Assembly: GCA_008933995.1 (NCBI GenBank)
Contig: WARS01000110.1
Location: forward strand, 2,232,001-2,296,000
Length of the DNA: 64,000 bases
From: Datnioides undecimradiatus
Taxonomy: Eukaryota; Chordata; Actinopteri; Lobotiformes; Datnioididae
Reading direction: 5' to 3'
Position 1 is the first letter of the stretch, and each line of letters begins with the position of its first letter. This document shows positions 185 through 63,425 of the stretch, in pieces. The notes below the pieces were generated by a model. That model was not told the DNA's origin and searched no databases. It saw only the letters and a list, made by a program, of their open reading frames with translations. A program made the position numbers and the translations under genes.

Positions 185-398
185 ACAAACAGGACTCCTT
201 GTGATGGGACCGGAGAACAGTCAGAGTTACCAGTTATTTAAAAACACTCTGCAGAGGAACAAGATTCCTATGATGGTTTTGACATCTGACAACTTCAGCC
301 AGCACATTCGCCATGTCAACCTGGCTAAGGGAGATGAAGCGGTGGTGGACATAAGTGCAGGAGTTTTGTATGCTGACCGTGCACTCAGGGCTGCACAG
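185..398 (+). CDS. pipox: pipox exon (first in window)
   Basis: The acceptor CAG ends at 184, and the first base completes a split Arg codon. The exon encodes [16 protein letters not shown] through ADRALRAAQ and matches human PIPOX QTGLLLLG...ALRALQ. It ends on a whole Gln codon before GT at 399. This is the start of the substrate-domain half of the protein. If the human eight-exon layout holds, it is exon 3. Confidence 0.93.
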
Positions 399-38300: not shown

Positions 38301-38685
38301 AGTTGGCAAGAAGTAAATCAGTGTGCACACATAATGGAACAAAGGGTGTTTTTTTGGCAATACAATGTAATATGGTAATACATATTATTGTGATGTACTA
38401 TATGTAAAGAAGAGTGACAAGGAGAGAGAAAGAAACTTATCATTGCAACCTCAAGTTCTTTGGCTCAGGTACAACCATGATGAAGAGAGTTAAACAGAAT
38501 GGGCGCTCAAGCCAAGCAATTACTGCCTTCATGCGACCAGCAGAGTGAAATTGTTGATAACGGAGCTGCTGTGTGAGCAGTGAGGTTAGACTGATGAGTG
38601 TCGAGTGAAAAAGACAATGTGGTTTCCCACAAAAAACCCTGCGAGGGTCTGGCATAGGAACAATTTAGGATTACCTACAGTGTTT

Positions 38686-38691
38686 TAATGT
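38686..38691 (-). terminator. Candidate polyadenylation signal (ATTAAA) for the short myo18a isoform
   Basis: On the minus strand ATTAAA lies about 140 bases after the stop codon at 38832. It is the nearest usable signal for the distal last exon. The call rests on the motif only. Confidence 0.4.
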
Positions 38692-38831
38692 CTGTGTTTT
38701 CCTGCAGGGTTGTGAGTCTTTAAGTGTACACTTGTGTTGGACTGACCACTTTTTGGGTCCGCATTGCATGCAAGACAAACTGCAGAGTTGAATGCGGGTG
38801 TGTTTCAGAGGGTGAATGCTGACAGCGACGA

Positions 38832-38997
38832 CTATGATGTGGTCTCATAAGGCCTGTCCTCGGCATCATCGTCTTTCATATGGCTGCCATATCTGTATCG
38901 AGAGTAGTAAGAACCTGGGGTCGCCCCGCCTTCTTTTTCTTCTTCCTCCTCCTCATCATCCGATCTCTCGAAGCAGTAGTGTCTTTGGCCGGGGGGG
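38832..38997 (-). CDS. myo18a: myo18a distal last exon: standard short acidic C-terminus
   Basis: On the minus strand, ACCCAG is followed by a C that completes a Ser codon begun by AG of the exon ending at 42902. It then reads [20 protein letters not shown], later [17 protein letters not shown], and ends ETTS-stop (stop at 38832-38834). With the upstream exon this gives SLKSSSPPG, against human SLKSSSPTS, and RSDDE is also shared with human RSDDEHD. Length, phase and sequence all agree with the common mammalian C-terminus. The minus-strand frame was too short to appear as a long open frame and was found by splice logic. Confidence 0.9.
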
Positions 38998-41900
38998 CTG
39001 GGTGTAGGGAAAAAACAAATAGACGCTGATGTTTATATCAAAAAAAGTGAGCACAGAAGAATTTGGTGTCAACGAGAGCTCAAAGCAAGTAAAAACATCG
39101 CAGAAATAAAAATGGCAGGGGAAAAAAAAAGGTAGAAATTATCATCATCCTTTTGACATGTATATGTTCCGTTTACAGTACAGTTTCATTTCGCAGTGAG
39201 GTTAGGTTTCTGCTAGCATCTAGTGGGCGCATAATAATCTCATGCAATGTAGTATCACACTAGTGTGAAAAATGGATATGAAGTACTAAAATACTGAACC
39301 TGTGCCATTTAAATTAGCGCTTCATTGTGAGAATCTGACACGTTTTAGTGACATACAATTCCGTCTAAAAATGGTAAAGTTGTGGATTGAATTGTGACAA
39401 AGAACAAAATAAGAAGCCTACAGAAAATATAATAACATGTTTCGAGTCACTTTCAACATCATCTCAAATAATCCTGAACGAACTCTGACACAAGGACAAT
39501 CCAATACCTATCATCAGTTTTATTATCTACATCATCTTTTTCACATTATTTATTATACAAACTGCTTGGTGCTTAAATATTGCAAACTGGGGGTTAATTA
39601 CTGTCAACTGGCCATCTCAAATGAATTTGCTAGCTGGTGTAAATCAATGCTTGGGGTCTAACTATGCCTGGAATTACGGGACTGGGAGGAAAAATGCATT
39701 GTGGCCTGTCTAAATTAACTCGCGTTATTTTTATCTCTCAGGGAATACAATTCAATATGACATATTATGGTCAAATAAATGCTAACTTAACATCAACGTC
39801 AAGAATACCATCTACTGACTACTCTTTCTGCTGTGATAAAATTCATCATATTCTTCTGCTCCCAGAGGATGCTTGACGAAAGCCTTACAGTATGAAACTA
39901 ATGACAAGTCAGACAGAAAGTGTGGTCACTTACGTTCGCTTGAAAGTGAGAATGTGTGGTGTTAACAATCAAAATTTTTTAGCATTCTTAAAAAAACCAC
40001 ATCACCAAAAATGCAACACACATGTTAGAAGTCAAGTCAAAATCAGACTGAATGGAGAACTCTTGAAGTGCTGATTAATAATAGCAAAAATGCTTTGATT
40101 AGTCAGGTGACATCATGCTTCCAGAACACTCTTCATGGTCAGTCTGTATCAGGCAACCACCTACTGCTTGCCTCAGTCACTGTCTGGCCGATACAGGTAC
40201 TTCATCATCAGGCTGTCCACCTTCTTCTTCCTCTTCTTATCGTCCTTTTTGTTCAGGGGCTGGCTCTCGCTCTGTGGCCTAGCTTCCAGCTCTCCTTCTT
40301 GACTGGACACAGTTCGAACTGGAGCCCTCTTCACACTGCTGGAGCTTCGGTAGGAAATGGTTGAGGCACCAGAGCTTGACTCTGACCCAGAGTCAGACTC
40401 AGAATCTGAAGACGAAGAAGATGAGGAAGAAGAAGATGAGTCCTCCCTCTTCTTGGACTTTTTCTTGGACTTCTTGGACCTCCTCTTGGAGCTGCTCCTG
40501 TGGCGATGGTCATCAGAGGAGCTGTCAGAATCAGAGCTGTGGCTTCGCTTCTTTTTCTTGCTCTTGCCTTTGCTTTTGCTGCGATGGCGACTGCTGGAGC
40601 TGCTGGCACTGCGGGACGGTCTCAAGCAGTCCACAGCAGATGCAGAGCGTCTAAGACCACTGGCAGGGCGAGTACTGTCATGGTCATGAACACCTTTGCT
40701 GTTGTCTTCATCATCCTTGGATTTTTCGTCTTCACCCTCAGAGTCTTCCAAACTTCTGCGCTTAAATTTGATAGGTTTGAAACTCAGCACCTCATTGATT
40801 GCTTTCTCTAGGTCAGGGTCGAGGTAGTTGCGATGACTGACTGTTTTGATATCCAAGTTATCGACTGGGTCATTATCAGCAGCTGAGGATCTGGCTTGTG
40901 GTGGTGGCATAGAGATACTGCGTCCAGTAGACGAGTGTGGACTGTGTGCAGACCTCTCGGTGAAGGCCATACTTCGAGTATCATCAATATCAACGTCAAA
41001 CTCACTCAGACGGCAGCTGCGCGCAAGCGACATATGGGAATCAGCCCGGCTAACACTTCCAGGACTGCGACCGCCAGACCGTCTGCTAAAGCAAGGGCTA
41101 CTGGGACTGCTGCGATATAGTGATCGCCCACCTCTGCCCTCATCGAAGCGTGAGAGGCACTGGCGGCGTCCAAGTGGACTTGATGGACCTAAGCTGATGG
41201 TAGACTTGGCATCATTCTCTGGGCTTAACCCAAGACGTGTAGAGGCCCGACTTGGTGCAGCAAATGAAATGGTTGATTCATTGTCAAAGTCACCCCAGCG
41301 ACTGTCCATGCCTTTCCTGGCTCTGCTATTTGCCTCAGAATAGGTCTGGGATATGACTGATTCTCTGCCATTCATGTCATCCCCTGCCTGAGACTTCCTC
41401 CTGGAACTCACTGAGTAGGTGTGTTCTTTAAGATCTGAAGTTTTGGGTTTTGCCTTATGTAAAGACAGAGTGTCTTCTGGCTCAGCACTCTCCTTGAGAG
41501 CACTAAAGAGGGCATCCCCTTTGCCACCAATTGAGTCAAGGTTGGATCGTTTTCTGTAGCTGAGGGAGCTCATCACTGACATTGGCCTGCTTGACTCTAC
41601 CTCTTTGCCCTCTTTATTTATCTCCTTCCATTCCTTACCCTCCTTCCACTCTTTCCCTTCCTTTGCGTCTACATTTAAAGCACATCTAGAAAGAAACAGT
41701 GGGAAAAATGAAGGAATGAAGACAGTGGGAGAGAGAAGGAGAAAGATGAGATTTTGGGTCAAGTGGAGGTGAGTGACGGAAAATGAGAAACAAATCAATC
41801 AAACTTAAAATCACAAAACAAAAATGTGATGAGAAATGTATGAACTGAAATTAAACACAATGAAAGTACAATGATAAGATTGACATATTTATGGGAGTGC

Positions 41901-44900
41901 AACAGGAGACATTTGATAAGGGACTTAAATGGGCTTTAGCTGAACTGAAATATCAAGACAGACACCAACATCAGTTCACTGCTAACATCAAAAATGAAGA
42001 CCACAGTAATGAGAAAATCCCAACTTCTATTCTGTTGGAAAATGCTTACATTTCCTTTCAAATTCCCAAATTACTTTTGACCGTAGTTGTTTTAAGTTAT
42101 TGAAAGTTGTGTCAAGATAGACTTGACTTTGCGTAAGCAATAGCAATAAGCATATAAGCGACTGGATTAGGATTCATAATGTTTTTGAACCTAGGTCACA
42201 GCATCTAACTGCTACTGCAGAAAACGGACAAGATTTGCTTAAAGAAAAGAAAAGGAAGAATATTTCCTACACCAGTTGTTAAGTAATGTTTATATAAAAC
42301 TGACATTTAGAGCTGAGGTTTAGGGTAACCTCAACTATTGTGTGTTTGTCTCTATGTGTGTGTATTATACCAATATGTATACATATACAAATACATTCAC
42401 TTGAACTTGGAAACTAAACTCCTGCAAGGCTGGATAGCTTGGTAAATCAGTCAGTGTGTGTTTATGGGAACATGCTGCCAAGAAATGATTTAAAAACTCA
42501 AAAAGTTTATAAAAGTTGGGAGTGGCTCAGCTGGGGGAGGTAAGTTAAATCTTCTGGTAAGGAGACAAATCTGGGACGATCTAAGCTGTCAGCTTACAGA
42601 CACATTCATTTATCTCAGCCCACAGCTCAGGTAGACTATGCCAGCTGGCCACTGGGCATGTGGATAAATCTACCGTGCAGGTGGAATGTCCCCTATTAAC
42701 CAAGCAGGTGACAATAAAGACAAAGTAGCTTGAACATGCTTTAAAGAAATAGCAGCCCCTTGATTTCAGCTTAGAAGTCTGCTAACCTTTATTTCCTTCG
42801 GGTCGGATCATCTAAACCAGACAGCCCAAAAGCAGTGAAATGTAAGATTGCTTACTAACTGCTGCTGAAGTCATAGTAACAGCAGCTGCCTTTGTACTGA
42901 CCTGGAGCTCTTGAGGCTGCCATCATCTGAGAGGTTCTTGGTGGAACCTTTGCTTTTGGACAACCAGGACTTCACTCCATCCACACGATCCTCCAACTCA
43001 GAATCTGTGTCTGAATCACCCTGACTGGTGAGACAGAGACAGGAAAAGAAATCAGGGGAAGCAAAGGGGACAGATTGCAAAGGAGGTTATGAATAGAGAA
43101 ACAAGAGAAGATGCAAGATATAGCCACTCAGAAAGGAGAGAATTCGGTCAAAGAAATGTTATTGTGAAAGGAGAATCAACACTGGTAGAAATGTTCCTGT
43201 AAATCGCTGTAGCTATGGAACCAGAAAATGAAGAACAAGCTTTAAGTGTTAGCGCGGATGCAAAGAGGGATTTTGGCACATATTCTGGATGATAGTCAGC
43301 ACGTGCAGTCAGCTCAAAGTGCCCCAGTAAACACACAAACATGCCTGCAAGAGGTTGTACACAGCAACTCCTCACTGTTGTCACTGTTAGATGAGTGCTA
43401 TCACGGTCCAGCAGTTAGCTGGCACTGAGGAATCCAACAAACATTTTACCTTTACTATTCCAAAGCAACATCAGAGCTCAAGTAGCACTGCGGTATGAAT
43501 AAAACCCGAACATCCAGCTTACATTTCACCACGTTTTTTGGAGTTGTAGCCATTACTCCAGGCAACAGTGAAAATGTACTGCTGACATCTGCGAAAGATG
43601 TAACTCTGCTAGACACAGTTTGACATTGCAAATCAATCACCACTCAAGCTGGCTGATTTTTAAATTCAAAACTCATCTGTATATAAAATACTTTTGAAAG
43701 TGATAAAAAGGTAGGTCATGTCTGTCAAAAAAGGGGTTTTGCTGATTTCATGCAACTGATAATACGTTGAACACCTGCCAGGTTGTCTGACCACTCATGT
43801 TACTATAATGTGAAATGTTTTTATTGACAGGTCATTATTAATTAAAGATTTTGTTGTCCATATTTCAATTTGGCAATCAGAAATTTCTTCACAAAATGAG
43901 GTATAATGGTGCAGTGGGTGTATGGTGATACTGTTCTAGGGGTGTTATCATTGTGGCTTGTTTGCTGAAATGCACTGGTATGCAAAGTAAATAAAATGGT
44001 AGACTGAGGTCATGGAAATGACTTTTTTGTGTGTTAAACTCGAGTAAAGCAATCAATTCAACTCAAGGGAAATGCACCTACATTACAATGGACGTTATGG
44101 ACTATTTTCCTATGCATGTGGCAAATTGAAATGCTTACTTGTTGTTTTTAGATGTATGAATACAAGATGGCACATGCTAAAGAAATCATGAATTTACTTT
44201 GAACTGCAGAGTTTAAGAAAATGCCAGATTTATCTTTCACCTGGTAATTATTTTTTTCATTAGACCTACACATAGACACACACACAGACAGACAAACACA
44301 TGCAGTCTAATGCAGACACTTATAATTTTTGTTCTTGACAGAATGATTTGGTACACAGCTGGGCACTGCACTGCTTTTCCTCTCAATTATCATTACACTT
44401 TCACAAACCACTGCGAGCCATGGAGTAAAATAGAGGGCTTGTCATAAAATTTGACACGGATGAAAAGAGCGCAACACTCATTAAGTGCCGTCAAAGCCCA
44501 GTGCTTGTGTGGTGCTGTGAAATTAAGTTGTTACAGCTTAATAGTCCTACAGAGACATCAGAGGGGTGGCTCAACATCTCTGCATCTGTTTCAGACAGCC
44601 TCCCATCTTGTTGAGGTAGACAGAGAAAATATTCTTGTCTTGGGCACACAGAGCTCTGAAAGATGCAGTACCACCTATAATTAAAATCATTAGCAGTCAG
44701 AGACAAAGGCTCCCTGGTTTTCAAAGGGGAGAATTCAAATAATTGTCTGCCCTGTGAGATCCAAATGCAGAGCCTACTAGCTTCTATGGAATACAATAAC
44801 CTTGGATGGCCATGCTGGGTCTGTATTCATGCCAAAAATGAGGAGGGAGGGATGAGAATAAGGACAGAGGCGATGGACTCTTAAGCTGTAATTAGCTTTG

Positions 44901-47900: not shown

Positions 47901-50900
47901 TAAATGAAAACAGTAAGGCTTGTGTTCATTTTTCAAATGCAACATTACACATCAAAACACCCTGCAGTTTCAATTAATAGTCTTTTATACCACCAGAAAA
48001 CCAAAAACTGACAGAGTACTAGAATGGCTGGGAGCCAGAGGTTAAAGCGGCATGTGCGCTACTTGTCTAGTGAGCAAGACAGCTTTTTGTAAGACATTTG
48101 AGGGTTCTGCATTATTAAGCAAGTGAGTCAAAGATTGATGAGGAACACACCCCCTTTTTTTCTACTGTCAGGAGTGCAGTCACCACCGAGCCGCGGTCAC
48201 ATCTAGCCCTAGAGCGGGCAGATGAAATATTAAGAGGGCCCCGGGAGTGAGAGGCTGAGTCGTTGTCGACTGTTGTTCAGAAGACACGAAACAGCAGTGC
48301 CCAACATGACGCCCTCAGACCAAGGCAAGGTGGTAAATAAACACAGCTGGATATACCCCTTGGCGGGGTAAGAAAAACTGTGAGGAAGATCTTGGCCTTG
48401 AGGGGGATGACTGGAAAGATCATGACATTTGGTCCTTTCAATTCAAGGCTTTGCAAAGTGGTTAACCATACAGGGAATCGGAAGAGTGAGGCTTGATTCA
48501 TGCTGGGAATCGTGTAACGTATTGTCAGTGGTATTCATGCATCTCAGCATGTGAGGGCATGCAATGATGAGTGGAGTAAACTGGGGTTATGAGGGACTTG
48601 CTGAGCACTGTTGATGATGCATTATCCCTGAGCCTTCACACATCAAAGGAAAATCCCCCCTTGGATTTACTGTATATCTGCCTCCTCCACAGGGAATGTC
48701 TTTCAGTTTGAATTGTTGAATATGTTTGGATCAGGAAGTGAGCAATTGGTCTTTGATTCTGATGGGCTGACACTAAGACCTGATGTCTGAAAATAGATGA
48801 ATATTTTGTAGAGCAAAATCAACAATCCAAACTGACCAAGACTGCCAGGTGGATTCCAAATATCATTTCAGTCTTTTTCTGTCAAGGGAGTTTTCCTTTA
48901 AATATCAGCTTTATTCTACAGTGTGACAGCTATAGTGTGATGCACTAACTGGACCGAAACTAAACCCAGAGGAAAAACTCAGATTTTCTCTCTCAACTAT
49001 CAACATCTTGACTAAATGTTCAAAGACTGTAGAATGCTGCATCATTTCCAGTGAAGCAAAAGAAAAGAAGTTCAAGTTCCTCACGTTCTGTTTTGTCTTT
49101 TCTGATACTTTGTCACCATGTCTTGCAAACTAGCCGTGATGATGATGGGTGGAAGGACATACACGAAAAGAAAACAAAAGAAGACATTAAAAGAGAAAAA
49201 CATGAAACAAGAATCAATCAAAAAATAACATAAAATGTGAATGATGTTAAAAAATATCTCTAAAAATAATTATGCACGATATGGCAAATGTTGTGGTAAC
49301 CCAGTTTTTTGCTTTTTCAAAGTAACTGTACTTGTATGCATTGTGTTTTTAGGGACATTGACTCAGCATGCAACCTCATTTTGATCTTGTGACTTGCATC
49401 AGATTGAAGAAGCCTCACAGAGCATATTCTAACAAGTCACAGAGCTGTTTACTGCCGTTGTGGGGAAGAAAAATAAGTAAGGCTCAGCAGGCATCTCAGA
49501 GAGTGTGTACCTTACATGGCACACCAGAGACAGGACTTTTTACTAGGTGTAAATAATACAGTCTGACTTCCCTTATATTGAACCCTGTGATCATTTCAGT
49601 ACAACCAACTTATTCCCTCACTGCTTTATCCCCCCCAATTGTTATGTCTGTGAGGTCAAATCACATTTTAGCTGGGATGGCTGCTGTCTGTTTGAGGAGG
49701 AAGGGTATTAAAGGCGCAGTATATGTACGTGTTACCAAAAATGAAATGTCTGGAAAGCTTTGCTGGATTTCTGCACTTTAGTGATATGTCATTGGTCATT
49801 ATCATCATATTGGCGTTATCATACATGACAACTGTTCGACTCAAATTTACTCATGTTAAATGAGTGAATATGGGTCTCTCCTTTCTTTGTAGGGTTTACA
49901 TTAAAAAAGTGGATATCACATGTTTATGTAATACAGCTGGTGAGCACAAGTTGTTGTTGTTTTGGTCTCTGTACAGGTTTCTGGAACAAGGCACCCTCAC
50001 TGTGACGGCAAGATTCCCAAGAACGTCTATGTGCCTGGCTGTTGTTCATCAAAGCTTTGTTCTACACAACTCTACACTACATAAGACTGATATTGATCCT
50101 CTAAGCTCACACTATGAAAAAAACAAACAAACGCAGAAAGGCGACAACATGAAACTATCTGACCCCAGGAACCTTTCATAGCAGAGTGAGTATTTATAGG
50201 GAGGATTAGCTGCAATGTAGCTTCCTAATAGAGTAAATAAAATATTGACAAATATACCTATATAGGACTAGATAAAGTCAGTTACTGTAAAGCTCCTCAC
50301 TCTTATGGCATGGTATTGCTTCTTTAAACATGGATATTACTCCTCAAATGCTGATTCATAAAAATGCACAAAACTGTCCCAAAGCTGAAGGGTGAATTGT
50401 TTGGTAACCTAAAAACACAGGTAGTGTTACACCCCCTGCAAATAATAATAATAATGTTCCTAATAATATTTGAAGAAAAAGAAGAGAACGCAGAACACAT
50501 TGTCAACCTTGGGAACAGCTGTTTGATCATCTTTGTCTTAAATCAAGGTCCACCTGCTAGCTTTATCTCAAGAGTTCAACAGCATTTTGTGGTCTTCATC
50601 AACCAATGCAATTAGCACAGCTACAAAAACAACTGGTGCAATGTAATACCACAAAGACTGGGTTTTGCATATGTATATGGTGTCTATATGGTGACTCAAT
50701 CATTCCTTCCTAAGTCCTCCACCTTTTAGAACCTCAAGGTGTTCTAAAGCTATAGGTTAATTTTTCTGTACCTGTTGATAAGGTCCTCATTGTCATCACT
50801 CTCCATTTCATCTTCAATAGCTGCCTGGAGATCACCGATTCTTTTGAAGGCCAGCTTGAGGTCTGCTTGCAGGCTTTGGTTAGCAGCCTCCAAGCTCTCA

Positions 50901-53900
50901 ATGTCCATTTCCTGATAACGAGAAAAGAGTCAACTGAGCCATTTTGCTGAGTCATTCGTTAAGTTAAATAATCACTGTTTGCCACATCCTTACCAGTTCG
51001 TGTTTTTTGCGACTGGCCTCAGCTTCCTTTTTAGCCAGCTCGCCCATTTCCTCTTTGATGTCGCGGATCTGTCTCTGCAGACGTTTATTCTGCTCCTTCT
51101 CGCGATTCTCGCTGCTGCTGCGCTGATCTCGTTCCTCCGTCAGCTTCTCGAGGTTCTCCTTAAGACGAGCTACAAGGCTCTGTGCAGTAACAGAGAGAAG
51201 ATTCAACAATATGGTCACATTTGATACCATATATATTATCAACTATATAATAAACTTTTTATATCAATATAATTCACATAGTTGAATGCTGTGTTAAGAA
51301 ACATAACCCATTTCTTCTGTAAAGCCAACAACTGAAAACACTCCGTGTGGTTTAGGTGAACAGTGACGCTTGTGTAGAACGTGAGCTAGGAGGAGGACTC
51401 ATCTGTTATGGTGAATTTTTTTGTGTTGTTATGAGTACTATGTGTATTTGGACATATCTGATGGGAAGAGAGGACAGTACCATTTGTAAGTATGTTCTGC
51501 GTTGTTGTTCAACTGAATTAACATTCTCAGAGATGGGCCTATTTTTATTTAGAATGGGCTATTTATTTCAGATGATTTCCTGTTTACATACTGGACAGAA
51601 CACGAAAGTAAGTGGGACAAAAACCAAACAAAACTTTAACCTGGCATACAGTCCTAGTAGAGTATCTCCCCTCCATCCTCCATCAACCTCCAACTGATGG
51701 CATCATGATTAATGAACAACATTGGTCAATTGCCTGCTTTATATACAAATACATCAGAAAGATCAGGTCCTGTCTGACTAAGCATGCTGCTCAACTCCTG
51801 TACCAACACTAGTCTTTCTTTGACTACCTCTACTACCACAATGCTGTTCAAGCGTTGTTTTTCATGAGTAATTGCAAATAAATGTCCTACCTTTACTATC
51901 TTTTCTCTCTATCTCTTAATTCTTAAGCCCCGTCTCCAATTTTTTTTATAATAATAGTAATTGCTAGGAACTTATATGTTACTTCATGCCCCTGCAAGTG
52001 TCTGTCTTGTTGCCAGAATGTACCTCATTTACATGCTGGTTTGGACAAAGCATTAACAAATTCAATGACAATCCATCCAATAACTAATAACACTACAGAC
52101 TGCAGGTTGTGCTGGGTGAAAAGTCAGAGAATTTCACAATTCTAACCTGTCCATACAGAGTTTTATCCCACTCCATTTTCGATAGTGAGATATTTTGCTA
52201 GATAACTGAAAAACATCTGTCATTCACCTGCTAAATAACATCAGAAAGATCAGGTCCTATCTGTCTGAGAATGCAGCTCAACTCCTGTCAAGGTATGAGT
52301 CAAAGGTACAGGAGTACTCATACCTGCTTGATAGGAAAAGTCAAGGGATCACTAACGTTGTTAGTCATATATACCTAATATAAATACCTGTACCAAATAC
52401 AAAAGCAGTTTATCCAAAATTTGCGAGCATATATCATTAAGGAAGTCATTCACAATGCTAAACCTCGCATCAGTAGAAAGACATCTGAACAATTACAATA
52501 TCCTTGTTATTAGATCGATTACTTGTTCAGACTTCAATGCATTCGCAGAATCAGAGCACATTAATGAAAGAATACATTTCATGACCGCTCTGGAATAATA
52601 TGACATGTGACTGTGATTTGGTAGGTATGGATACAAGAACTTTCCTCAACCAAACCCAGTCAGAAAATAATAACTACAGATGAGGTTGTTTATATCGATG
52701 ATGAATTGGAATGGTGCAGAAGAATTTTAATACAAATATGTTACGTGTGAGCAATGTTTTAACAACTGACTCCAATGTAATTCATCAAATCTGCAGGGAG
52801 TCTGTATTCAGTGTGTGCATCAATGACGTCAGCACACTTTATAAGTGCTTTAGCTCCTGCATTAGCTACAGGCCCTATTCATATTTCACACACTGAGTGG
52901 GTGTTGTGCTGTGCCTCCTCACATCTGTATTGATTGAGCTCTGCTCCCTCCAGCTTTGATGAGTTGTGATACTCAGGTAACCTAAAATAAACACTAGCTG
53001 CAGTTCTTAATGCTGATCAGATGTCATAAAAAAAAAAACAGAATGGCAAAATGTGTTTAAAATTGTGCATATTTTCGAAACTTTGCATACCACAGGCTAC
53101 AAATTCCCCTATTTAAACAGAAAAATATATTTACAATAAAGGTTGAGCAGGGGGAGTACAATGAAGAAGTTAAACATGGTCTGAAAGGATGCCAGAAATG
53201 CAACATGTTAGTTATACCCTCTTGTTTTTTGAGATCCAATGTTTTTAACCTGTTTTGTTTGAAAATTCATGTTTGAGCTGGCTGAGAGCTCTTTGCACAA
53301 CTAATGAATATTAAAATTTGTCTCATGTGAAATTTTAATGTAATTTGAAAATAAAATGAAAAACAGAATAGTCAGGTGAGAATAACACATGCTAGAGGAC
53401 AAACTAAAGCATGCGTGGTTTTATCAAAATTTTATGGCGTTACAGTACATGTCTATGTTGTACCATTATTGTTCAGTTCACCGTGACCTTTTTCTAATCT
53501 GTTTCTGCAGTTGATCTCTGACCCTAGCCCCACATTTCACCCTCCCACCAACACCCTCCATGTTGTCCATATGATAGAGCTTCATCCCCCAGAAGCCTAC
53601 CACCGCCAGCACCACCAGAAGCACTTTCGTGCCAGTCTTAAGCACTCACCTCCAGGCGTTTGACCTGGGTCTTCTCAAACTCCAGCTTGGATTCGAGCTC
53701 ACGGATCTTGGCCTCCTGTCGGCTGACAAGGGATTTCTCCACCATGGATTGCTCCTGGAACTCTAATTGGCTTTGGAGGGCTTGCATCTAAGGCACAAAC
53801 ACACGTCACTATATTTGTTAGTGCCATCCATCGGCTGGAATAAAATCTGAACTTTTTGTCTTGATTGAAAATGTCTCGTCACAAATAGTAGCTATTCTAT

Positions 53901-56900
53901 GTGGAGTGCTAGAAAGGCTATGTCCTACTTTTCATTTTATGCAACTATGATTGCTTGTAGGCACTAAATCAATTTTCATTGCTATCCAGACAACACCCAG
54001 CTCTATATAGCTGTTGATCCTTATATGCCTCTTTAAACTGCTTTAAAAAGGAGCTTTCATGTATTTTTTGTGGTAAAACTCTTCCCCTCCCGAAATTCCA
54101 ACACCGATCACAAGAGTAGTCGTTTTTTTGAATTCTCCTCTGACTGAAGATTCTAATCCCCTGCTGTGTTTTGTTGTATTAAAAACCTTTAGCTCGTTCA
54201 CTTTGGAAAAGCACTTTGGAAAAGCAGGTAATATTATAAATTAAAAAAAGTTTGTAGAAAAGTTTTATATTCCCCCTCAAAGTAGGGTATGATTTAAAAA
54301 AAAAAAAAAAGCTGGGTAGGTACTGGTACTGCATCAGAACAGTTACACATTTTGAAATGATTGCCAATCTATGTGACAAATTTGGACAAATTATTGTCCA
54401 TGACACAGCTATATCAAAATAACACTAGGAGACCTCTGAGACACAAAGAGATAAATGCTCTTAAACTGAGGTCTCAGTTGGTATCACTGTTTGTAAGACT
54501 GTAGGGCTTCGGTCATAGTAAGACAGTGTGTACAACTTGTACAGGTGGTCCCTTGTCATACTGGTCTTATCTCCATCTTATCTTGGCTGAGTTTGATTGT
54601 CTGGTACAACTGTGTCTGATGGAGAAAAAGATTCATGAGGCAGCAGTCATTGCGGGGATGACAGCACAAACATGTTCAGCATTATTACTTGGCTGAGTTG
54701 GGAAACCAAGTTGGCCATCTGTGTCACATATTGCCATTGCCAATCCTGCTTGAATGACACATCAATTAAATTAAGGGTTGTATTTGTCAAAGAGAGCAGT
54801 GCAAAGGCAGAGGAAATAGGCTGAAGCAGTGCTTTGCTTGTTTGTAAATGCAGTTCTTCACTGGACACTGCAGCAGAGGAAACTCTTGATACTTTTCTCT
54901 CTCAGGGGAGGGCCTGCCTTAAAAACTGTCAAACAGCTGCCATATGGTTCAAATTTCCAAGTTCTTTAGGCAGCAATACCTTATTTCATTATCGATAGAT
55001 ATGCAGAAAAACATGACTTTTCATGCGCATCTCAATTTTCAAGCAATATAAAGGTTTTCAGTTCAAATCCCCAAAATTATGCATTGACGTTACGATGCTT
55101 TTCTAAGCTGATTGTAGGGTTGAACAAAATCATTCAACACTCAAATCTCCCCCTGCTTATCTGAGGGATCTTATAGTCAAACTCCAAACTTACTGTCCTT
55201 GTCACATCAGTGATATGCTAAGGGCAGAAAGGCAAAATCTACCTTCTCCTGAACCTCCTGCTTCTCCTTGAGGGCATCCTCCAGCTGGGCTTGGAGGTCA
55301 CTGATCTGAGCCAAGTTTTGGGCAGACTGAAACCACACAGACATAGAGAAGAAGTTAAGTCAGTGATCAACATAATGCTACAGTATGCAGGCTATACACA
55401 GCTGTGCAACTTTGCAAAATCTAACCTAAATCCATCAAATGTCAAATCAAATATATCAAGAAGACTGAGTAAAACATGATGACATCACAGTGACATTAAC
55501 AGGACAAATACATCTGCATGAAAGATTTTTTTTTTTAGTCTGGTGAAAGTATATCAATAAATCTCATTTCAAAGTGACCTGTGTGAAATTTTTGAGACGA
55601 GTGCTTTTTTCACAGTAGATGAAGCACTCTGCTACGGCGAGTCCCACTGGGAATTCAACTGCCTCAATTTAGACAAGAAGGATGGATTCATTTGGAGCCA
55701 GTAGAGGCAGATCACTCATCATTCCATCAACGATGTAAAGGAAGCGCTTTTACTCCGCTCTCATTTCCACTTGCTGCTCATCTGCATATACAGCTACTTT
55801 AATACTCATGGGGGGGAGGGGGGTGTACCGAGAGCTCGCCAAATACCACTTCTTTTCAAAAACGACTCAATTGGCAGGGATGGAATGTGTTAAAACATTT
55901 CAATATAAGGCTTAATCCAGGAATTTCATCTTTTAGAGATTATCTTGAGATTGCTTTGTGACATGATATTGTTGAAGACATGACATGAAATGTGGAGCAT
56001 TACTCCAGCTGAACTAGTGGGAAAATTTCTTGGTTATAATTAAAAATCAAACACTAAAGAGTCAATGTCATTAATTCATTATATGATTGGTGATTCTGTT
56101 TATAGTTTTTTTATTGTTGATTGTTGAAGGCAATGTTACTTTAAACTAGTCACATCTGGAACACAGAAATGCAGACATAAAAATCAACTTGTGGCTGTGG
56201 AGAGTTTGGAACTGTTAAATGCAAATAAATGAAAAGACAGAGACATGCATCTGAAAGCAGTTGCAGCTGCTTGTAGTGTTGATCAGTCTTATTGTGTATT
56301 TTGTCCTCCATACCATTATACTGTACTACATGTCCTAATCCGTCACACTCCATGCCTCTGCAGGATAGGTTCAAACTCAGTTAGAATCAATTACTGCCAC
56401 TGCTTTCTGCATTGGCCAGTGCAAAAAGATGCTTCAGGTTATATAATTCTGAAGATACACATGAACATCTCCGTGGACCTACACAGAGGAGGGTGTTATA
56501 ATTAACAGAGACGCACAAGAGCTAACCTCCCAAATCTCAAAACGCACTGTGTTTTGTGGGAATTCAAATCATCAAAGTTGATTCAACTTAAATTAAAAGT
56601 TAAAATAGGGTGTTTTTTTGGATGCACACGTCATTTTCATAAATACATAACATCTGGTGGTTAAATGTAATTGAAGAATATCCAAGTAGTAAACAAATTA
56701 GGTTTGAGATGGAGTACACAAGCGAAAACAAATGTTATATTTAGGTCTATAATTCTTTCAGAAGCACTCTCAAAACACAATATTTGTGCGGTATATATGA
56801 AACAAGTAGACCTGGGCCACAGCAGCCTTGTGTTTCTTCATCAGCTCATTGAGATCCTCCTGGTCCTCCTCCATCCTGGACTGAAGATCATTTTTCTCTC

Positions 56901-59900
56901 TCTGCAAGCGGCTCAGCTGCTCCTCCAGCTGAGGGAACATGAAGCAAATCAAGGACATTTGTAAAAAGACCAATTGAGATGCATATTCACAATACCAAAC
57001 AAAATTAGACAAAGAATGAAAGCTGGTTCTCCAACTAAAACCTTTATATAGAGAATACAGAATAAAAATAGACAAATAGGATTTATGCTTCAGGCAGGGT
57101 TAAGCTCTAACCATTTTGGTTGAGTCAAATGTATTGTTTTCTGTTATTGTCCAATTATGTTTTGTTTTGTTTTGAAATCAGAAATTTACTTTGTTGTAGC
57201 TTTCGGTGATGACACAAATATTTGTCATATGATTACAATTGTGTGGAAAGATAAATCAAATATTCAGAAACATAAAATCACATTGCAGCTACAGTTGGAA
57301 AACCTGTTTAAGCCTGGAACTAATTCTCAGTCATGAACCAGCCTGCACTAGGTGATGCAATTCATGTTTACATGCACAAGTAAACTGGCTGATGAGCAAC
57401 ACATATGCAAATATGCATATACAAATATTTGGTTGTGCCCATTCATTTTAGTAGGGGGTGCAGGGCTAAAAAAATGGAGAAATACTTGAAGATGAATATG
57501 TAAATATCAAGTTTGCCACAATTTAATTTAGAATATCACTAAATATAAAGGGAGGACAATAATATACAACACAAAAATTGTTAAACTAATAAAAACTTTC
57601 TTATTGTCAGTTAAATTAACCAGTTTAAGATATAATGTCCTCCCTCCTTAGGCAATGATTATAACTTATCTTGTTTGACATCTAATACAGAGCAATTTCT
57701 TACTTACTTAACTTATTCCAATACGAAAAATGCTTCTTGTTTTAACAAGATACATTTATATATTTATATTAATTTGTGCATTAATCAGAATGTTTTGTAA
57801 CATGTTATAACAACAGAACTTTCGAGAAATGATTCGGTGTGTATTAAGAAGAAATTCAACTGTATTATTTTATGCATTTTTTTATTTTTTTTTTGCTATG
57901 TCACACCTTCAAGACACTGAACCCTCATATTAAAATTTAATTGAGAATTAGAAGTAATAAGGGGAATATTTTTTAGTCAGGCTTGCACCATTTCCGCTGA
58001 GGAGAACTCTTACTGGTTTCTGCACAGCTCATCTCTGATCACAGGGCCCGACAGGGGTTATTCAAGGTCCCAGTAATAACCAAGATATCCAATTAGAGGC
58101 TAAAAGCTAGCAGTGACTGCCTCGTACCCTTAGCTAAGGGGAGGTGCTGAAGTAATCCTATTTCTGTAATGACTGGGATAATATACAAAAGAGGGAGAGA
58201 GGTTGGTGGCGCAGGGCTATGGATTAATAAATTATGACTAATGTGACTTTGTGAAAAGGCTAATGAATCCATTTGCACATAGTGAGCAGATGAGAGAAGT
58301 CAGGGACAGAGATGACACTGATGCATCCATTAAAAAAAACCCAAAACAACAACAGCCCAAACAAGATGTAGTCTGAACCCCAAATCGTTCAATCAAAAAA
58401 CAGCTTCAAAGCATGCACTTGAATTATGGGAGTAAGATTTATTTATTCCTTATCTATTTTTATTAATACCACCCACTGCTGAGATGTACCAAGGTGTACT
58501 TAAGTAACTAAAAATATCCAAGTGGAATCTGGGGCAAATTCATTTACATATCACGCCTTCCAATTTTAGATCCACCGTTGGCCTCAGTGAGGGCTGATAA
58601 AAGCTTTGAAAGCAGCTCTGGCTCTGCAAAGTGGGAAAAATATTGTGATGGACGTTTGAAAAAAAAAAAAAAAAGCGACGGTCGGCGGCATCAAACCTCC
58701 ATTTAGCACGTTTAACAATAGGCTGTCAGTGCAATCTCAATCCAATTACGTGACTTGGCTCTTTGTTTTTTCGCTTTTTTTTTTTTCTTCTCAGGATCTG
58801 TGAAAAATAAAGCTGTTGAAAACATGCGAGACAATTTTCTCAAAACACTGCAATTATGGCAACAGAACGGGAGAAGAGCAGGAGTGGGACAAAAAAAAAA
58901 AGGCAAAAACGCCAGACCATCTAAAAGAAATGTTATTTGCATGATTTTATCTTTGTTGAATTGCAGTGTATGATGTGGCCAGGGCTGCATCAAAAGAATC
59001 CCCCCTCCATTTATGCAATAACCATTTCTGTCATCAGTTCTCGAAGCCTTTTACTTTCCCAGCAGGCTCAATGTGTGCTGCAGAGGTTGTCCTCAAAGAC
59101 ACCATTTCAAAACAAACAGCTGGTGAAACATTCATCTCAGCTCTAAAGTATTTCTTTTCTACCTTCTAAGGACCAACAACAGTGTGAAGACAATTAAGTT
59201 GCATTTGCTTTCTAAAGACTGTGGGGGTTTTTTGTACAATACTGGAATACATCTATAAACGTCTCCAAAAAAACCTCAAACGAAACCAAATTGATGACTG
59301 AGAATAAGTCATCCATGGCTAGAGAAATAGGGGCCAAAGAATACAGGAATACAAGCACAAAATCGCCTTTGTTTCATTGGTGTGAGGCAGATGACTTCTG
59401 TCTAATACTCTTTTTTTTTTTTTTTTTTAAATTCACATGAAGCTGTTTTTTGATTAGCGTATCTCTGTTTGGTTTGTTTCGTACATAGGGTTAGGGTCAC
59501 ACGACGATGCACGTGTACGTACATAAAGGTGACGCGACAGAAAGTCCTGCTAATGGTGTCACACGCTGGTCATTATGAGGTTGCTACAGAAGGCATAAGT
59601 GGCAGAAAGGAAAAATGGAGGTCTCGCTCCACAGCGTTCGATGTAAAATACTAAGATGAACTTTGCAAGTGTTTCACAGGAAGGGAATAAACTCACATTT
59701 TCGTTAGAGCTCGGTGATACATTCAATTCATTTTGCTAAGTGACACTAGACATAACTTTGGTTTGTTTACATGGAAACTCTGCTGTGCATCTTTAAGAAT
59801 TATTGCTTTTCAGCTGATGCTACTCGTGCTGATAAACACAGCGGGTCCACCGCAGTGTCGCGCAGTGTTGGGTGCTGGGAAGAGCTGCAGTGGTATTTGC

Positions 59901-62900
59901 AAAGTCATATCTAATGACATTGAAAAGATTTAGCTCATGGTGATGATGAGATGCGTTGTAAGACGCTAGCTTACTGAGTGCATGTTTACCTCTTACACTC
60001 ACTCCTGAAATGAGATTCCATCTGCAGGTCCTCCTGTACCAAGCATCTTAACATGATTTTGTATGTTTTCCTGTTCTATTACACCATAACATGGACTAAC
60101 TAAAGTGCAAAAGGATTACAGCTTTAGCCTCAGATTCTCTGCATCAACACACAGTGCTGACCTTGCATTATATCATATTTGCAGCCATTAGAGTGAGATT
60201 AAGGGACATATTTACATGAGTCAATGAGAAACATTAAGTCAGCTGTAGATCAAGTTTTCAACTATCTCCTTTTAAAGCAGTAAGGACAACACTAAAGTTA
60301 ATGGGACATCGAAGTAAATTGTGATATAAAGAAACAGCTAAAATAATAAATAATAATTACGTCAATATTTAAAAATGAAATAAGTAAACAGCCTCAATTC
60401 AAGTTGAAAAGTCTTATAAGCTTCTCTTAAATTTAAGGTTTCTAAATACAGTTAATCAATTTAATCAATACAAATGACTGATTATAATTGTAGTCGCATG
60501 CCAAAAATGTCTTTAACATACTCATTAGTTGACCATTACTATTTCAAAGAGCTTCTCCAGTTAATTCAAAAACAGAAATATCCCAAAATACTGGAAAAGA
60601 GCTGACTGTAACAATTTTAACTGAGTGAGCACATGCATTCTCATTTGCTGCCCCTCTCTCTCCGTTTATAGGGTAACAGAAGAAACACAATCTAAGTTGT
60701 GAGAATGCAAAAGTCATCCTCGCCTTTAAATTCACCCATACACACATCTATCTATCTATCCATTCATCCATCCTCCTTTTCTTAGTGTCTTCACTAGACC
60801 TGAAGCTATGTCAACTTAATTATCTTTACTCTTCACTGCACGGTGGACATAATATTCACCTTTCCAAAATATGCAGTCAAACTTTTCACGGTGCCATGTC
60901 TTATTTAAATGACGGTTCTGCAGTTTCAGCAGTCAGTAATTTCTCTTTAACAGGCAGGAGAAAAAGCACGAGGAGATTAAACCTCACTGATACAGGGTGC
61001 AAGATTGGGGGTAAATGAATAGCAGGAAGTATGAGGGAAAAAAAAAGGTGGAGGAAAAAAAGCAGTTTGACCGACACGTGGAACCACATTGCCATGGGAA
61101 CGGGGCAAAAAGTAAAATAAGTCGTGCCAAAAGGACAGAAAAAATAAAGGTCAAAAAAGATTAGGGGAGGCTGAGATAGGAGGAAAAGAAAAAAGTAGAA
61201 TAGACTAAAGATGTAAAGAGAGATGTACAGATAGTTTAGGAGAACTGTTTTTTGCTGGGAAAAAGAAAGATACTAACCTACACATGGAAAATTCAGTAAT
61301 AGAAACAGAAAAAAATTTAGCGGGATAAAAGAGGGAATGATAGGGGCACTGAGGATGAGCTCTGAGGGAACAGGTCTGTCCTCTAACTCATTATTTCTGG
61401 CTAAAGGCAGTGATTTGACACCAACGCAGATGGTGCATCATTAAAAAAGGCACCAAAAACACAACCTAGGTGATCACCACTGATGATCACTTTCAAAAGC
61501 TGTGACAGCTTCGATCTTCCCCTATTCATCAACGTTACGCAATAAACGTAACTCATAAATGGGATTACACTTGTCCCTGTGGCTGTGTCACTCTGCTAAA
61601 CCCGTTAGAACTTCTGCTTTTAAAGGCTGAGAGGAGGATCCAGAGAGGTATACTGACCGCCTGTTTGGTTTTGGAGATGTCCTCCATCTGAACGTGCAGA
61701 TCTTCAATCTCCACCTCCATGGACTTGCGAGCTTTAACTGCAGCTGCACAGGTGAACTCTGACTCCTCCAGCTGGAGTGGATAAAAGAGTGGAAAATCTA
61801 ATCAGTAACATCAGTGCAGGTTATTCCCAAATGCACATTTATATTTTACATGCAGATATAGACACTGCACTATACTTTCAATTGATTTTAGTCTCTTTTT
61901 AAAAAGAAAATACAGTTATTCTGTACTATCTCAGACCAAAGGCGTGCAAACTGTGAGGTCTCCCTAAGGAGACATGAGAGGCATGAGCTGGCTTTCCATC
62001 AAAATTTCTACTCTTTCTCAGAGTCATAACAGTCAAAACTGAGCATACAGTAATGATATACAGATTTTCATGACTCACTTCCAAATATTCTGATGTTGAT
62101 TAGGAATGCAAATGTTCAATTCAATTCAATTCAATTCAATTTTATTTATATAGCGCCAATTCACAACAAAAAGTCATCTCAGGGCACTTTACAAACAGAG
62201 CAGGTCTAGACCACACTCATTACTGTTAGTTACACCCAACAGTTCCACCATGAGCAAGCACTTGGCAACAGTGGCAAGGAAAAACTTCCTTTTAACAGGC
62301 AGAAACCTTGGACAGATCCTGGCTCTAGGTGGACGGCCATCTGTCTTGACCGGTTGGGGGGGGGTACAATATAGAATAATGACAGCAAATGACAGCAATA
62401 GGCAGCAGAGGACACGGGGCAGGTCGGTGGAGCCACATATATCTAATTAATCCAATTTTTAAATAAAATAAAGATGCCTCTTATAATGCTAGAAAAAAAA
62501 ACCTAATAAATACTTTTAATCTGTCTTAGACTTGAAATTGTACCTTATTCTTGTAACTGGTGCAGTAAGTGTATATACAGAGGGATTTTGCATGATTGTA
62601 CCTGGTTCTTAAGCTGGGCAATCTCCCTTTTGCTGGGCGCGTTGTTCTTAATGTGGTCCAACATGATCTGGGCGTCAGCCAGCAGAGCCTTTGTTCTCTT
62701 CAGGTCTTTCCTCAAACGTTTCTCAGTCTCTATGTCGCCACTTCTCACCTGGGAAGAAGGTACATTGAGATTCCGCTACTAAATCAGGATTAACTTCAGA
62801 TCTTACCATTTAAACAACCATTCCCAAAATAATGCACCATATACATTTGAGTTGAATTTATACACAATATTGAATATTTTAGCTTCAAACCATTAATGTT

Positions 62901-63425
62901 AATTCATACACAATAATATTCCTAATATTGAAGTAATTTGCAAGGATTAAATCATCATCTCACTGACAAATACACCATCTCACACTCACTTTAGCCATAG
63001 TAAAAGGCACATCTCCACATACACAGTGCTCATGCTTTAGCTTTAGACCAAATAACATACAAACATCGAGTTCAAATACAGCCCTGCACACAGAGGTTAA
63101 CATTAATTCCTGTTGAAAGATAAATGTCTTGCAATATCACACAGATTTGTTGGTAAAGTCGAAACTTTTAATCTGAAGTGACGGACTTCACCTATGATCT
63201 CACTATCTACAAGGGTGCTGCAAGAAATCACACCAACATGTTTTTTTATATTATCTATCTAGGATCCTGTTCTAGGTTCAACAGGACTGGAATCCATCCC
63301 CCAGTGTACAGTGTAATTACCTTGTCCTGTGCTGACAGAAGCTTTGACTCCAGCTCTCTCTTCTCTTTCAGCACTTTCTGCTTCTCATCGTATTCTTCTT
63401 CAAGCTGGACTTCCATTTGCTTCAG
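38832..63425 (-). CDS. myo18a: Unconventional myosin XVIIIA, coiled-coil tail and alternative C-termini (3' part of gene)
   Basis: MYO18A is a myosin-like, non-canonical motor that binds actin, can co-assemble with non-muscle myosin II, and acts in Golgi, lamellipodial and muscle settings. Ten shared exons (63321-63425, 62602-62748, 61658-61771, 56812-56928, 55243-55326, 53650-53787, 50994-51179, 50772-50911, 49085-49129, 42902-43024) join without a break into ~399 residues. These match human MYO18A from [12 protein letters not shown] to [10 protein letters not shown]. Either of two last exons then follows: 38832-38997 (54 more residues) or 40173-41685 (503 more). Almost all of the shared part is heptad-rich coiled coil, high in Glu, Lys, Leu and Gln. 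The motor, IQ, PDZ and N-terminal KE-rich parts lie beyond base 64000. The tail-to-tail neighbour pipox is conserved in human. Which teleost duplicate this is (aa or ab) cannot be told here. Confidence 0.95.
38998..40172 (-). other. 3' UTR of the long isoform / intron before the distal exon
   Basis: For long-isoform transcripts this is 3' UTR; for short-isoform transcripts it is the end of an intron. Minus-strand AATAAA motifs lie at 39548-39553 and 39519-39524. No protein-coding signal is seen. Confidence 0.6.
39548..39553 (-). terminator. Candidate polyadenylation signal (AATAAA) for the long myo18a isoform
   Basis: Lies about 620 bases after the stop codon of the 40173-41685 exon on the minus strand; a second copy is at 39519-39524. 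If used, transcripts would end here and exclude the distal exon. Confidence 0.45.
40173..41685 (-). CDS. myo18a: myo18a proximal alternative last exon: 503-residue Ser/Arg/Lys-rich tail
   Basis: On the minus strand, TTTCTAG precedes an A that completes an Arg codon begun by AG of the 42902-43024 exon. The frame then stays open for 503 residues to a stop at 40173. The segments in order are: a Lys-Glu repeat ([14 protein letters not shown]), a Ser/Arg-rich part with many RxxS-type sites ([28 protein letters not shown]), a more ordered-looking block [20 protein letters not shown] then [14 protein letters not shown] (about 40740-40835), an RS/K-rich part ([19 protein letters not shown]), an 11-Ser run with acidic flanks, and KYLYRPDSD at the end. 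Most of it looks disordered. A muscle isoform of mouse Myo18A with an extended C-terminus (Myo18A-gamma) has been described. That this exon is its counterpart is inference. Confidence 0.85.
41686..42901 (-). other. myo18a intron before the proximal last exon
   Basis: Minus-strand GT at 42900-42901 and AG at 41686-41687. The acceptor has a pyrimidine tract (TGTTTCTTTCTAG). No other feature is seen; short TG runs lie near 42345-42362. Confidence 0.8.
42902..43024 (-). CDS. myo18a: myo18a exon, last shared exon (branch point for two C-termini)
   Basis: Reads Q then [20 protein letters not shown], then [19 protein letters not shown] and AG of a split codon before GTCAGT. It matches human [25 protein letters not shown]...[10 protein letters not shown]. 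The start is placed at 43024 (after ACCAG), not at 43020 (after CAG four bases later). Only the former matches the phase-2 donor of the previous exon, giving NRTQGDSD of the same length as human NKLEGDSD. Confidence 0.92.
45101..45122 (+). repeat. Short (TG)n-rich microsatellite
   Basis: Interrupted TG run (GTGTGTTTGTGTGTGTGTGT) within a myo18a intron. Confidence 0.9.
46310..46930 (-). mobile_element. Broken non-LTR retrotransposon (LINE) fragment
   Basis: On the minus strand, successive frames give [10 protein letters not shown]-like, [19 protein letters not shown], a [20 protein letters not shown]-like piece and [11 protein letters not shown]. This is the fingers/palm part of a LINE reverse transcriptase (PLFKKGD...NYRGITLLS...FRPGRGT...VDLEKAFD). 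A jump then leads to the element's C-terminal/3' end ([16 protein letters not shown]). The catalytic YADD part is deleted, and there are several stops and frameshifts. Clade is not fixed from memory. It is an old relic, in the same orientation as myo18a. Confidence 0.75.
49085..49129 (-). CDS. myo18a: myo18a 45-bp micro-exon
   Basis: Found by homology and splice logic, as it is too short for a simple open frame. On the minus strand, GCTAG is followed by T, which completes Ser, then [14 protein letters not shown] and AC of a split Thr codon before GTGAGG. It matches human [15 protein letters not shown]. It enters with phase 2 and leaves with phase 2, so skipping it would keep the frame and remove 15 residues just before the end of the coiled coil. 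Confidence 0.9.
49130..50771 (-). other. myo18a intron
   Basis: A 1.6 kb GT-AG intron (minus-strand donor GTACAG at 50766-50771). No repeat or gene recognised. Confidence 0.8.
50772..50911 (-). CDS. myo18a: myo18a coiled-coil exon
   Basis: Reads [38 protein letters not shown] and DDNEDLIN plus AG of a split Ser codon. It is nearly identical to human [19 protein letters not shown]...EDLINS, and is the most conserved stretch of the tail in this window. The heptad pattern continues to the acidic ending. It starts in phase 0 and ends in phase 2, unlike all earlier tail exons. Confidence 0.95.
50912..50993 (-). other. Very short myo18a intron (82 bp)
   Basis: Minus-strand GTAAGG donor at 50988-50993 and TTATCAG acceptor ending at 50912. 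It is the only intron under 300 bp in the window. Confidence 0.9.
50994..51179 (-). CDS. myo18a: myo18a coiled-coil exon
   Basis: Reads [40 protein letters not shown] and [20 protein letters not shown] then EL (62 residues, phase 0 at both ends). It matches human [17 protein letters not shown]...EASRKKHEL. Strong charged heptads; part of the dimeric tail rod. Confidence 0.95.
51180..53649 (-). other. myo18a intron with two LINE scraps
   Basis: A 2.5 kb intron. Two short LINE-like pieces lie at 51739-51800 and 52236-52300. The C-rich stretch 53470-53649 next to the donor was examined as a possible exon and rejected. The rest is unremarkable. Confidence 0.7.
51739..52300 (+). mobile_element. 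Two scraps of the same LINE region
   Basis: 51751-51800 (ACATCAGAAAGATCAGGTCC...GCTCAACTCCTG) and 52238-52292 (ACATCAGAAAGATCAGGTCC...GCTCAACTCCTG) are near copies 490 bp apart. The first reads [17 protein letters not shown], like the YIRKIRPYLSEHAAQLL motif of fish LINE reverse-transcriptase C-terminal regions. The sequence between them is not recognisable as LINE, so they may come from a duplication or two insertions. Confidence 0.55.
53650..53787 (-). CDS. myo18a: myo18a coiled-coil exon
   Basis: Reads [39 protein letters not shown] and TQVKRLE (46 residues, phase 0 at both ends). It matches human [20 protein letters not shown]...FERTQVKRLE. Flanked by TTAG and GTGAGT on the minus strand. 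Confidence 0.95.
53788..55242 (-). other. myo18a intron
   Basis: A 1.5 kb intron with a poly-A run near 54295-54310; no other feature. Confidence 0.8.
55243..55326 (-). CDS. myo18a: myo18a coiled-coil exon
   Basis: Reads [20 protein letters not shown] then EKQEVQEK (28 residues, phase 0 at both ends). It matches human [33 protein letters not shown] acceptor and GTAGAT donor on the minus strand. Confidence 0.93.
55327..56811 (-). other. myo18a intron
   Basis: A 1.5 kb intron. A high-complexity segment at 55600-55800 next to a G-rich run (55810-55830) may be conserved non-coding DNA. Nothing else is seen. Confidence 0.65.
56812..56928 (-). CDS. myo18a: myo18a coiled-coil exon
   Basis: Reads [39 protein letters not shown] (39 residues, phase 0 at both ends). 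It is almost identical to human [46 protein letters not shown] acceptor and GTCTAC donor on the minus strand. Confidence 0.96.
56929..61657 (-). other. myo18a intron (4.7 kb)
   Basis: Mostly AT-rich. Contains a TCTTGTT/AACAAGA fold-back near 57735-57750, a high-complexity stretch at 57990-58330 that may be conserved non-coding DNA, and poly-A/poly-T runs (58659-58674, about 59410-59428). No exon or gene is supported. Confidence 0.65.
61658..61771 (-). CDS. myo18a: myo18a coiled-coil exon
   Basis: Reads [38 protein letters not shown] (38 residues, phase 0 at both ends). It matches human [44 protein letters not shown] acceptor and GTCAGT donor. Confidence 0.96.
61772..62601 (-). other. myo18a intron with a LINE 3' end
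   Basis: An 830-bp intron, about 40% of it a LINE 3' end (62115-62440). The rest is unremarkable. Confidence 0.8.
62115..62440 (-). mobile_element. LINE 3' end, same family as 19690-20706
   Basis: In reverse complement it ends in the same tail (GCGCTATATAAATAAAATTGA then ATTGA units). It shares CCCAACCGGTCAAG, GGTTTCTGCCTGTTAAAAGG, CTTGCTCATGGTGGAACTG and GTGTGGTCTAGACC with the + strand copy at 20460-20706. Only the 3' UTR is present, so it is heavily 5'-truncated. It sits in the sense orientation of myo18a. Confidence 0.85.
62602..62748 (-). CDS. myo18a: myo18a coiled-coil exon
   Basis: Reads [49 protein letters not shown] (49 residues, phase 0 at both ends). It matches human [34 protein letters not shown]. 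The NNAPSK segment is the usual short break in the heptads. Confidence 0.96.
62749..63320 (-). other. myo18a intron
   Basis: A 570-bp GT-AG intron with no recognisable feature. Confidence 0.85.
63321..63425 (-). CDS. myo18a: myo18a coiled-coil exon (most upstream in window)
   Basis: Reads [35 protein letters not shown] (35 residues, phase 0 at both ends). It matches human [35 protein letters not shown] acceptor and GTAATT donor on the minus strand. The gene continues past base 64000. Confidence 0.95.

Follow-up and report, generated by a model that had tools for sequence, protein, structure and literature searches.

Background

Myosin XVIIIA (Myo18A) of the mouse has a striated-muscle isoform of 2409 residues, Myo18A-gamma (Horsthemke et al. 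2019, as cited in PMC11112018 and PMC7900500). According to the excerpts of these two papers that were consulted, its N-terminal extension has no PDZ domain and contains a polyproline helix, its first 19 residues are like those of Myo18B, and its C-terminus is long and serine-rich. Partners of the C-terminus that the alpha and beta isoforms have in common are beta-PIX and GIPC3, the latter being bound through its PDZ domain (PMC11112018, excerpt). Here we analyzed the 3' end of the myo18a gene of the fish Datnioides undecimradiatus, where the last shared coding exon is followed by a long proximal and a short distal last exon. The locus lies in a stretch of 64,000 nucleotides (C44:2232001-2296000; contig WARS01000110.1 of assembly GCA_008933995.1), which is referred to as the window. 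All positions are those of the window unless a contig (C44, C478 or C464) is named.

Two copies of myo18a, as found here, appear as myo18aa and myo18ab in excerpts on zebrafish (PMC5099880) and rockfish (PMC8228858). In zebrafish both were targeted by knock-down, with the PDZ domain being stressed (PMC5099880). The rockfish table lists two proteins of 2720 (Myo18aa) and 2301 residues, and in that study myo18ab is traced to the genome duplication of teleosts (PMC8228858). Neither of these excerpts describes alternative C-termini. With its 2720 residues the rockfish Myo18aa annotation may include a long tail, which should be taken as a hint only (PMC8228858). No description of a gamma C-terminus in fish was found among the titles and abstract beginnings of the Myo18A papers listed from open-licence full-text searches; public gene predictions may well include the long exon already. 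The isoform switch as such is known, and what is added here is the probable fish end of that switch.

Two alternative last exons of myo18a

The minus strand of the window carries ten tail exons of myo18a with frame-compatible joins, ranging from position 63425 down to 42902. A sequence-only reading of this DNA had placed two phase-matched last exons behind the donor at 42902, and both coordinates and phases were confirmed. The shared exon ends in AGCTCCAG, followed by the donor gtcagtac, and leaves AG. When it is joined to 41685, the first base A of the proximal exon completes AGA (Arg), and 503 codons follow up to the TGA at 40173. When it is joined to 38997, the first base C of the distal exon completes AGC (Ser), and 54 codons follow up to the TAG at 38832. 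Behind the common ..SLKSS the long form has 504 residues vs. 55 in the short form and thus exceeds it by 449 residues. A C-terminus longer by 503 residues, as had been proposed, is therefore correct for the open frame behind the Arg but not for the net gain. The distal exon gives a short in-frame end after ..SLKSS, like the alpha/beta-type C-terminus; the mammalian short end presumably follows an SLKSS-type stretch as well.

From stop to stop the proximal frame comprises 541 codons, approximately 38 of which precede the acceptor and fall within the polypyrimidine tract. Frames of at least 541 codons occurred neither when the window was dinucleotide-shuffled 100 times (longest 189 codons) nor when the local stretch was shuffled 2000 times on one strand (longest 360 codons), so the frame is far beyond chance. 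In a synonymous-codon score it was the best of the six frames of its exon (-0.045), and none of 67 overlapping intron windows reached this value (maximum -0.147). However, four of the other five frames (-0.084 to -0.133) exceeded all intron windows too, which makes the codon score weak evidence that probably reflects base composition.

The encoded serine-rich tail of 504 residues has a charge-hydropathy index of -0.19 and is probably disordered. Neither the long exon nor the window gave a usable match in Pfam, PDB or Rfam, the single Pfam row (E 9.6) and the single PDB row (E 3.1) being chance. Scans of viral and prokaryote contigs gave no stray relative of the long tail, and six peptides of the tail were not mentioned in a full-text literature search. 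Additionally, no cassette exon with residues of the mammalian type (such as SYW) could be located in a search of the sequence between the exons.

A donor-like GGTAAG is located inside the proximal exon at 41639 (minus strand) and has the highest score among the 256 GT dinucleotides of this stretch. It sits in an 18-nt tandem repeat and could make an internal exon of 46 nt.

A second copy with the same arrangement

The genome searched for further copies comprised 581 Mb. Besides itself, the 503-residue sequence found a single place, C478:8685214-8686611, where two matches, 55 and 58% identical, adjoin each other within an open frame of 470 residues. The counterpart of the shared exon ends in AG there, and both last exons follow in the same order and phases. 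The proximal exon of this copy begins with A, giving Arg, and encodes 467 residues of which the last ten are as in the window copy. The distal exon begins with C, giving Ser, and reads ..SPP..GRSDEED..TLAESA.

Between the proximal exons of both copies 252 of 443 aligned residues were identical (57%). The proportion of differences was 0.28 at non-synonymous sites (pN) vs. 0.77 at silent sites (pS), with a 95% bootstrap interval of 0.32-0.43 for the ratio. In total, 514 nucleotide differences were counted, of which 130, 125 and 259 fell on codon positions 1, 2 and 3, respectively. When the same number of random changes was introduced in a neutral simulation, the number of identical residues never reached 252 in 1000 simulated copies (maximum 170), and stops were present in every copy (minimum 4). 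The surrounding non-coding DNA was compared as well, namely the intron preceding the proximal exon, the region between the two last exons, the 1.5 kb past the distal stop and the 76-80 nt before the shared exon. None of these four comparisons gave a match at E 0.01, whereas the exon gave seven. Judged by these comparisons, the long exon is under purifying selection as a protein, and the exon is conserved while its flanks are not. Together with the recurrence of order, phase and junction residues in the second copy, this supports the earlier assignment of both exons as alternative last exons of myo18a. Since the silent sites are saturated (pS 0.77), the long exon is not recent.

Similarity between the copies starts at the second residue of the proximal exon, upstream of the first in-frame ATG. 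Conserved stretches of the long tail lie around residues 26-67 and 273-315, in addition to the fixed last ten residues. A block of 32 residues was identical at 31 positions, and a genome search with it returned only these two places (E up to 10). At this sensitivity, other myosins, for instance Myo18B, do not have the block.

A distant third match to a myo18a tail exon was present at C464:10473365-10473547 (38% identity, E 1.4e-4). It is perhaps another myosin or Myo18B.

Gene identity and gamma-type N-terminal arrangement

In a six-frame comparison the exons of both copies were colinear through motor and tail, amid scattered low-complexity and chance matches, and all ten tail exons of the window were matched in the second copy. 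One upstream motor exon was scanned against Pfam and matched Myosin_head (1.6e-18); further motor exons are colinear between the copies. The P-loop reads GKSGSGKT in both fish copies, so that the E of GESGAGKT is replaced by K. In the excerpt of PMC11112018, GESGAGKT is the consensus and E is replaced by S in Myo18A. The long coiled-coil tail was judged by reading and by the colinearity of the ten window exons; three tail pieces scanned singly against Pfam did not reach the cut-off.

Far upstream, both copies carry a first exon of the alpha type, in which a KE-rich stretch is combined with a PDZ domain (C44:2384705; C478, frame from 8744939). The two exons are 60% identical over 323 positions, and in the C44 exon, which was the one scanned, Pfam PDZ was found with 6.8e-10.

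A start-like block was present in both copies downstream of the PDZ exon and ahead of the motor (MAFSSRFSFWEQKGSL and MAYKSRFSFWEQKGSL). The candidates for a gamma-type start are MAFSSRFSFWEQK.. and MAYKSRFSFWEQK.., and no third place was returned when the genome was searched with this short query. The start may be like that of Myo18B. The block lies at C44:2359455 (minus strand) and C478:8736130 and is conserved as DNA (44 of 52 nt). In the same interval, proline-rich open frames were found at C44:2358544-2357300 and C478:8735186-8734272. They contain repeated SPPxGFIPxPKP-like units and are 33% identical over 211 positions; the C44 frame had no Pfam match. The proline-rich frame is likely to be the gamma N-terminal extension.

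Behind ..CAAAAG of the start block, GGAAGTCTC follows in both copies, and there is no ordinary GT donor in phase for the proline-rich frame. The 3' end of the block may represent a conserved unusual splice site or point to a missing small exon.

Splice acceptors, poly(A) signals and regulatory motifs

Acceptors were scored with an approximate consensus matrix. Among 343 AG sites between 42890 and 38601 the acceptors at 41685 and 38997 ranked 3rd and 6th, with scores of 10.7 (proximal) vs. 9.5 (distal). The sequence-only reading had credited both exons with good acceptors and with poly(A) motifs of their own. Such motifs are present behind both stops, but for the short form only the variant ATTAAA (38689) is nearby and the next AATAAA is at 36966. 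Furthermore, counts of the poly(A) motifs in 38000-43100 were not above the rate of the whole minus strand (4 vs. 4.7 and 1 vs. 3.3). Being at background frequency, the motifs are weak evidence.

Counted over 60 nt, the polypyrimidine tract before 41685 was the richest in PTB-type tetramers of 12 acceptors compared (15; next 9). Over 100 nt, the proximal and the shared-exon acceptors tied with 16 each. Because of this tie and because the tract is not kept in the second copy, the proposed choice is not based on it. For the mouse, QKI is described to activate a Myo18a cassette exon (PMC5062968, excerpt), and human exon 48 was linked to RBFOX2 (PMC8686545, excerpt). From these excerpts neither exon was matched to the fish exons described here.

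Explanations for the two last exons

We consider it very probable that the two exons exclude each other as alternative last exons of fish myo18a, with the long end as the counterpart of the Myo18A-gamma C-terminus and a choice that predates the duplication of the two copies. Several observations weigh against this. The proximal acceptor of the second copy is weak (1.2 vs. 6.7 for the distal acceptor of that copy), and a PTB cluster is missing before its proximal exon, where 60 nt contain 4 tetramers. Within 38000-43100 no support came from the QKI motif ACUAAY (2 found vs. 3.1 expected) or the RBFOX motif UGCAUG (2 found vs. 2.2 expected), and as far as the two sequences tell, no regulatory motif is kept between the copies. 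Furthermore, the distal exons are little alike, with 11 of 40 residues identical and a bootstrap interval of 0.39-0.95 for pN/pS. A genome search with the distal exon of the window gave the exon itself and a chance-level row (E 1.99). Since the counterpart was missed, the distal exons are regarded as kin because of their position, their phase and a short core that they share (SPP..RSD(D/E)E).

This poor conservation would suit a long end that is constitutive, with the short exon being a relic or a minor form, and so would the proximal acceptor of the window copy, which comes first and scores slightly higher. We regard this as quite unlikely, since the distal exon retains frame, phase and core in both copies and its acceptor scores higher in the second one. 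It is unlikely, too, that the long exon is specific to fish, arose independently and is mouse-like in its serine content only. Serine-rich tails are cheap to evolve, but this one is conserved between copies with saturated silent sites and hence not recent. Moreover, the same loci carry the gamma-type N-terminal arrangement, and mouse gamma is described in the excerpts with just such a long serine-rich C-terminus (PMC11112018, PMC7900500). A separate single-exon gene or retrocopy in the last myo18a intron would explain why the exon is uninterrupted, is followed by an AATAAA of its own and matches no Pfam family or solved structure beyond chance. However, in both copies the frame is found at the same place and suits the myosin frame in its acceptor, its phase and its junction residue. 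Additionally, the similarity between the copies begins with the second exon residue, before the first ATG, and is absent from the preceding intron, which makes a separate gene very unlikely.

For the reading as alternative last exons, the relation to mouse Myo18A-gamma has to be considered more closely. The same gene has an alternative long serine-rich C-terminus, seen in the fish at the gene level, and a separate proline-rich N-terminal frame without PDZ, which in the fish is known from the DNA alone. Since both hallmarks are present in both copies, the fish gene carries the gamma architecture in its DNA. This architecture supports the relation to the muscle isoform of the mouse that was suggested earlier, and we read the 503-residue exon as the probable fish gamma C-terminus. 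In the excerpts, mouse Myo18A-gamma is an isoform of muscle and the A-band (PMC11112018, PMC7900500), while its putative fish counterpart is known from gene architecture.

An ancient origin of the switch had been proposed as well and could be followed back to the duplication of the two copies. This duplication is likely the teleost-wide one, to judge from the saturated silent sites and the excerpt of PMC8228858. The choice of the C-terminus has survived gene duplication in both copies, and a sarcomere-specific myosin-18A is therefore probably an old vertebrate feature.

Proposed mechanism

The two last exons would compete for the donor of the shared exon at 42902. If the acceptor at 41685 is used, with cleavage approximately 0.6-0.7 kb past the stop, a serine-rich tail of 504 residues would result, which contains two conserved stretches and ends in ten fixed residues. 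If it is passed over, the transcript would run to 38997 and encode a tail that is short and acidic, as in alpha and beta. Presumably both ends are made, with the long end being used in striated muscle. The switch would then replace the end that binds partners at the C-terminus with a tail that docks to the sarcomere: because the alpha/beta C-terminus binds beta-PIX and GIPC3 (PMC11112018, excerpt), that end would be removed and the 504-residue tail added. The conserved blocks may serve as docking sites and the serine-rich linkers may be regulatory.

More tentatively, and with somewhat less than even confidence, we suggest that the gamma tail is the more constrained end. Its 32-residue block and fixed ten-residue end would be undescribed sarcomere-docking motifs, kept since the duplication, while the serine- and lysine-rich sequence that connects them varies freely. 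The exon 41685-40173 and its counterparts offer a clean deletion target that removes the gamma tail and spares the short-tailed forms.

Features of the window

The coordinates of the myo18a features are given in Table 1.

Table 1. Features of myo18a in the window, in the direction of transcription
Feature	Positions	Strand	Remarks
Coiled-coil tail exon	63321..63425	-	gene extends 5' past the window
Coiled-coil tail exon	62602..62748	-	frame-compatible, matched in second copy
Coiled-coil tail exon	61658..61771	-	frame-compatible, matched in second copy
Coiled-coil tail exon	56812..56928	-	frame-compatible, matched in second copy
Coiled-coil tail exon	55243..55326	-	frame-compatible, matched in second copy
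Coiled-coil tail exon	53650..53787	-	frame-compatible, matched in second copy
Coiled-coil tail exon	50994..51179	-	frame-compatible, matched in second copy
Coiled-coil tail exon	50772..50911	-	boundary set by eye
Tail exon, 15 residues	49085..49129	-	boundary set by eye
Last shared coding exon	42902..43024	-	acceptor and donor fit the upstream tail-exon frame; counterpart in second copy
Polypyrimidine tract before proximal exon, 60 nt	41686..41745	-	87% pyrimidine, 15 PTB-type tetramers
Proximal alternative last exon	40173..41685	-	Arg + 503 residues, stop TGA; 117 Ser of 503; 57% identical to second-copy counterpart
32-residue conserved block in proximal exon	40758..40853	-	97% identical in second copy
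Two AATAAA, candidate poly(A) signals of long form	39519..39554	-	at 39554 and 39524; not above chance frequency
Distal alternative last exon	38832..38997	-	Ser + 54 residues, stop TAG; phase- and position-matched counterpart, 11/40 identical
ATTAAA, candidate poly(A) signal of short form	38684..38689	-	variant motif at 38689; weak

Frames resembling the reverse transcriptase of long interspersed elements were seen by eye at 19665-20156 (plus strand) and 46629-46835 (minus strand); neither of the two had a Pfam match. An inverted pair of a 193-nt repeat (20466-20658 and 62169-62361, 93% complementary) is probably an interspersed element.

On the plus strand, positions 1-11500 carry pieces of a flavin adenine dinucleotide-dependent oxidoreductase. 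One of three pieces scanned (2575-2811) was above the cut-off for Pfam DAO (3.7e-8). These pieces probably belong to pipox, which would be arranged tail to tail with myo18a, as are PIPOX and MYO18A in human.

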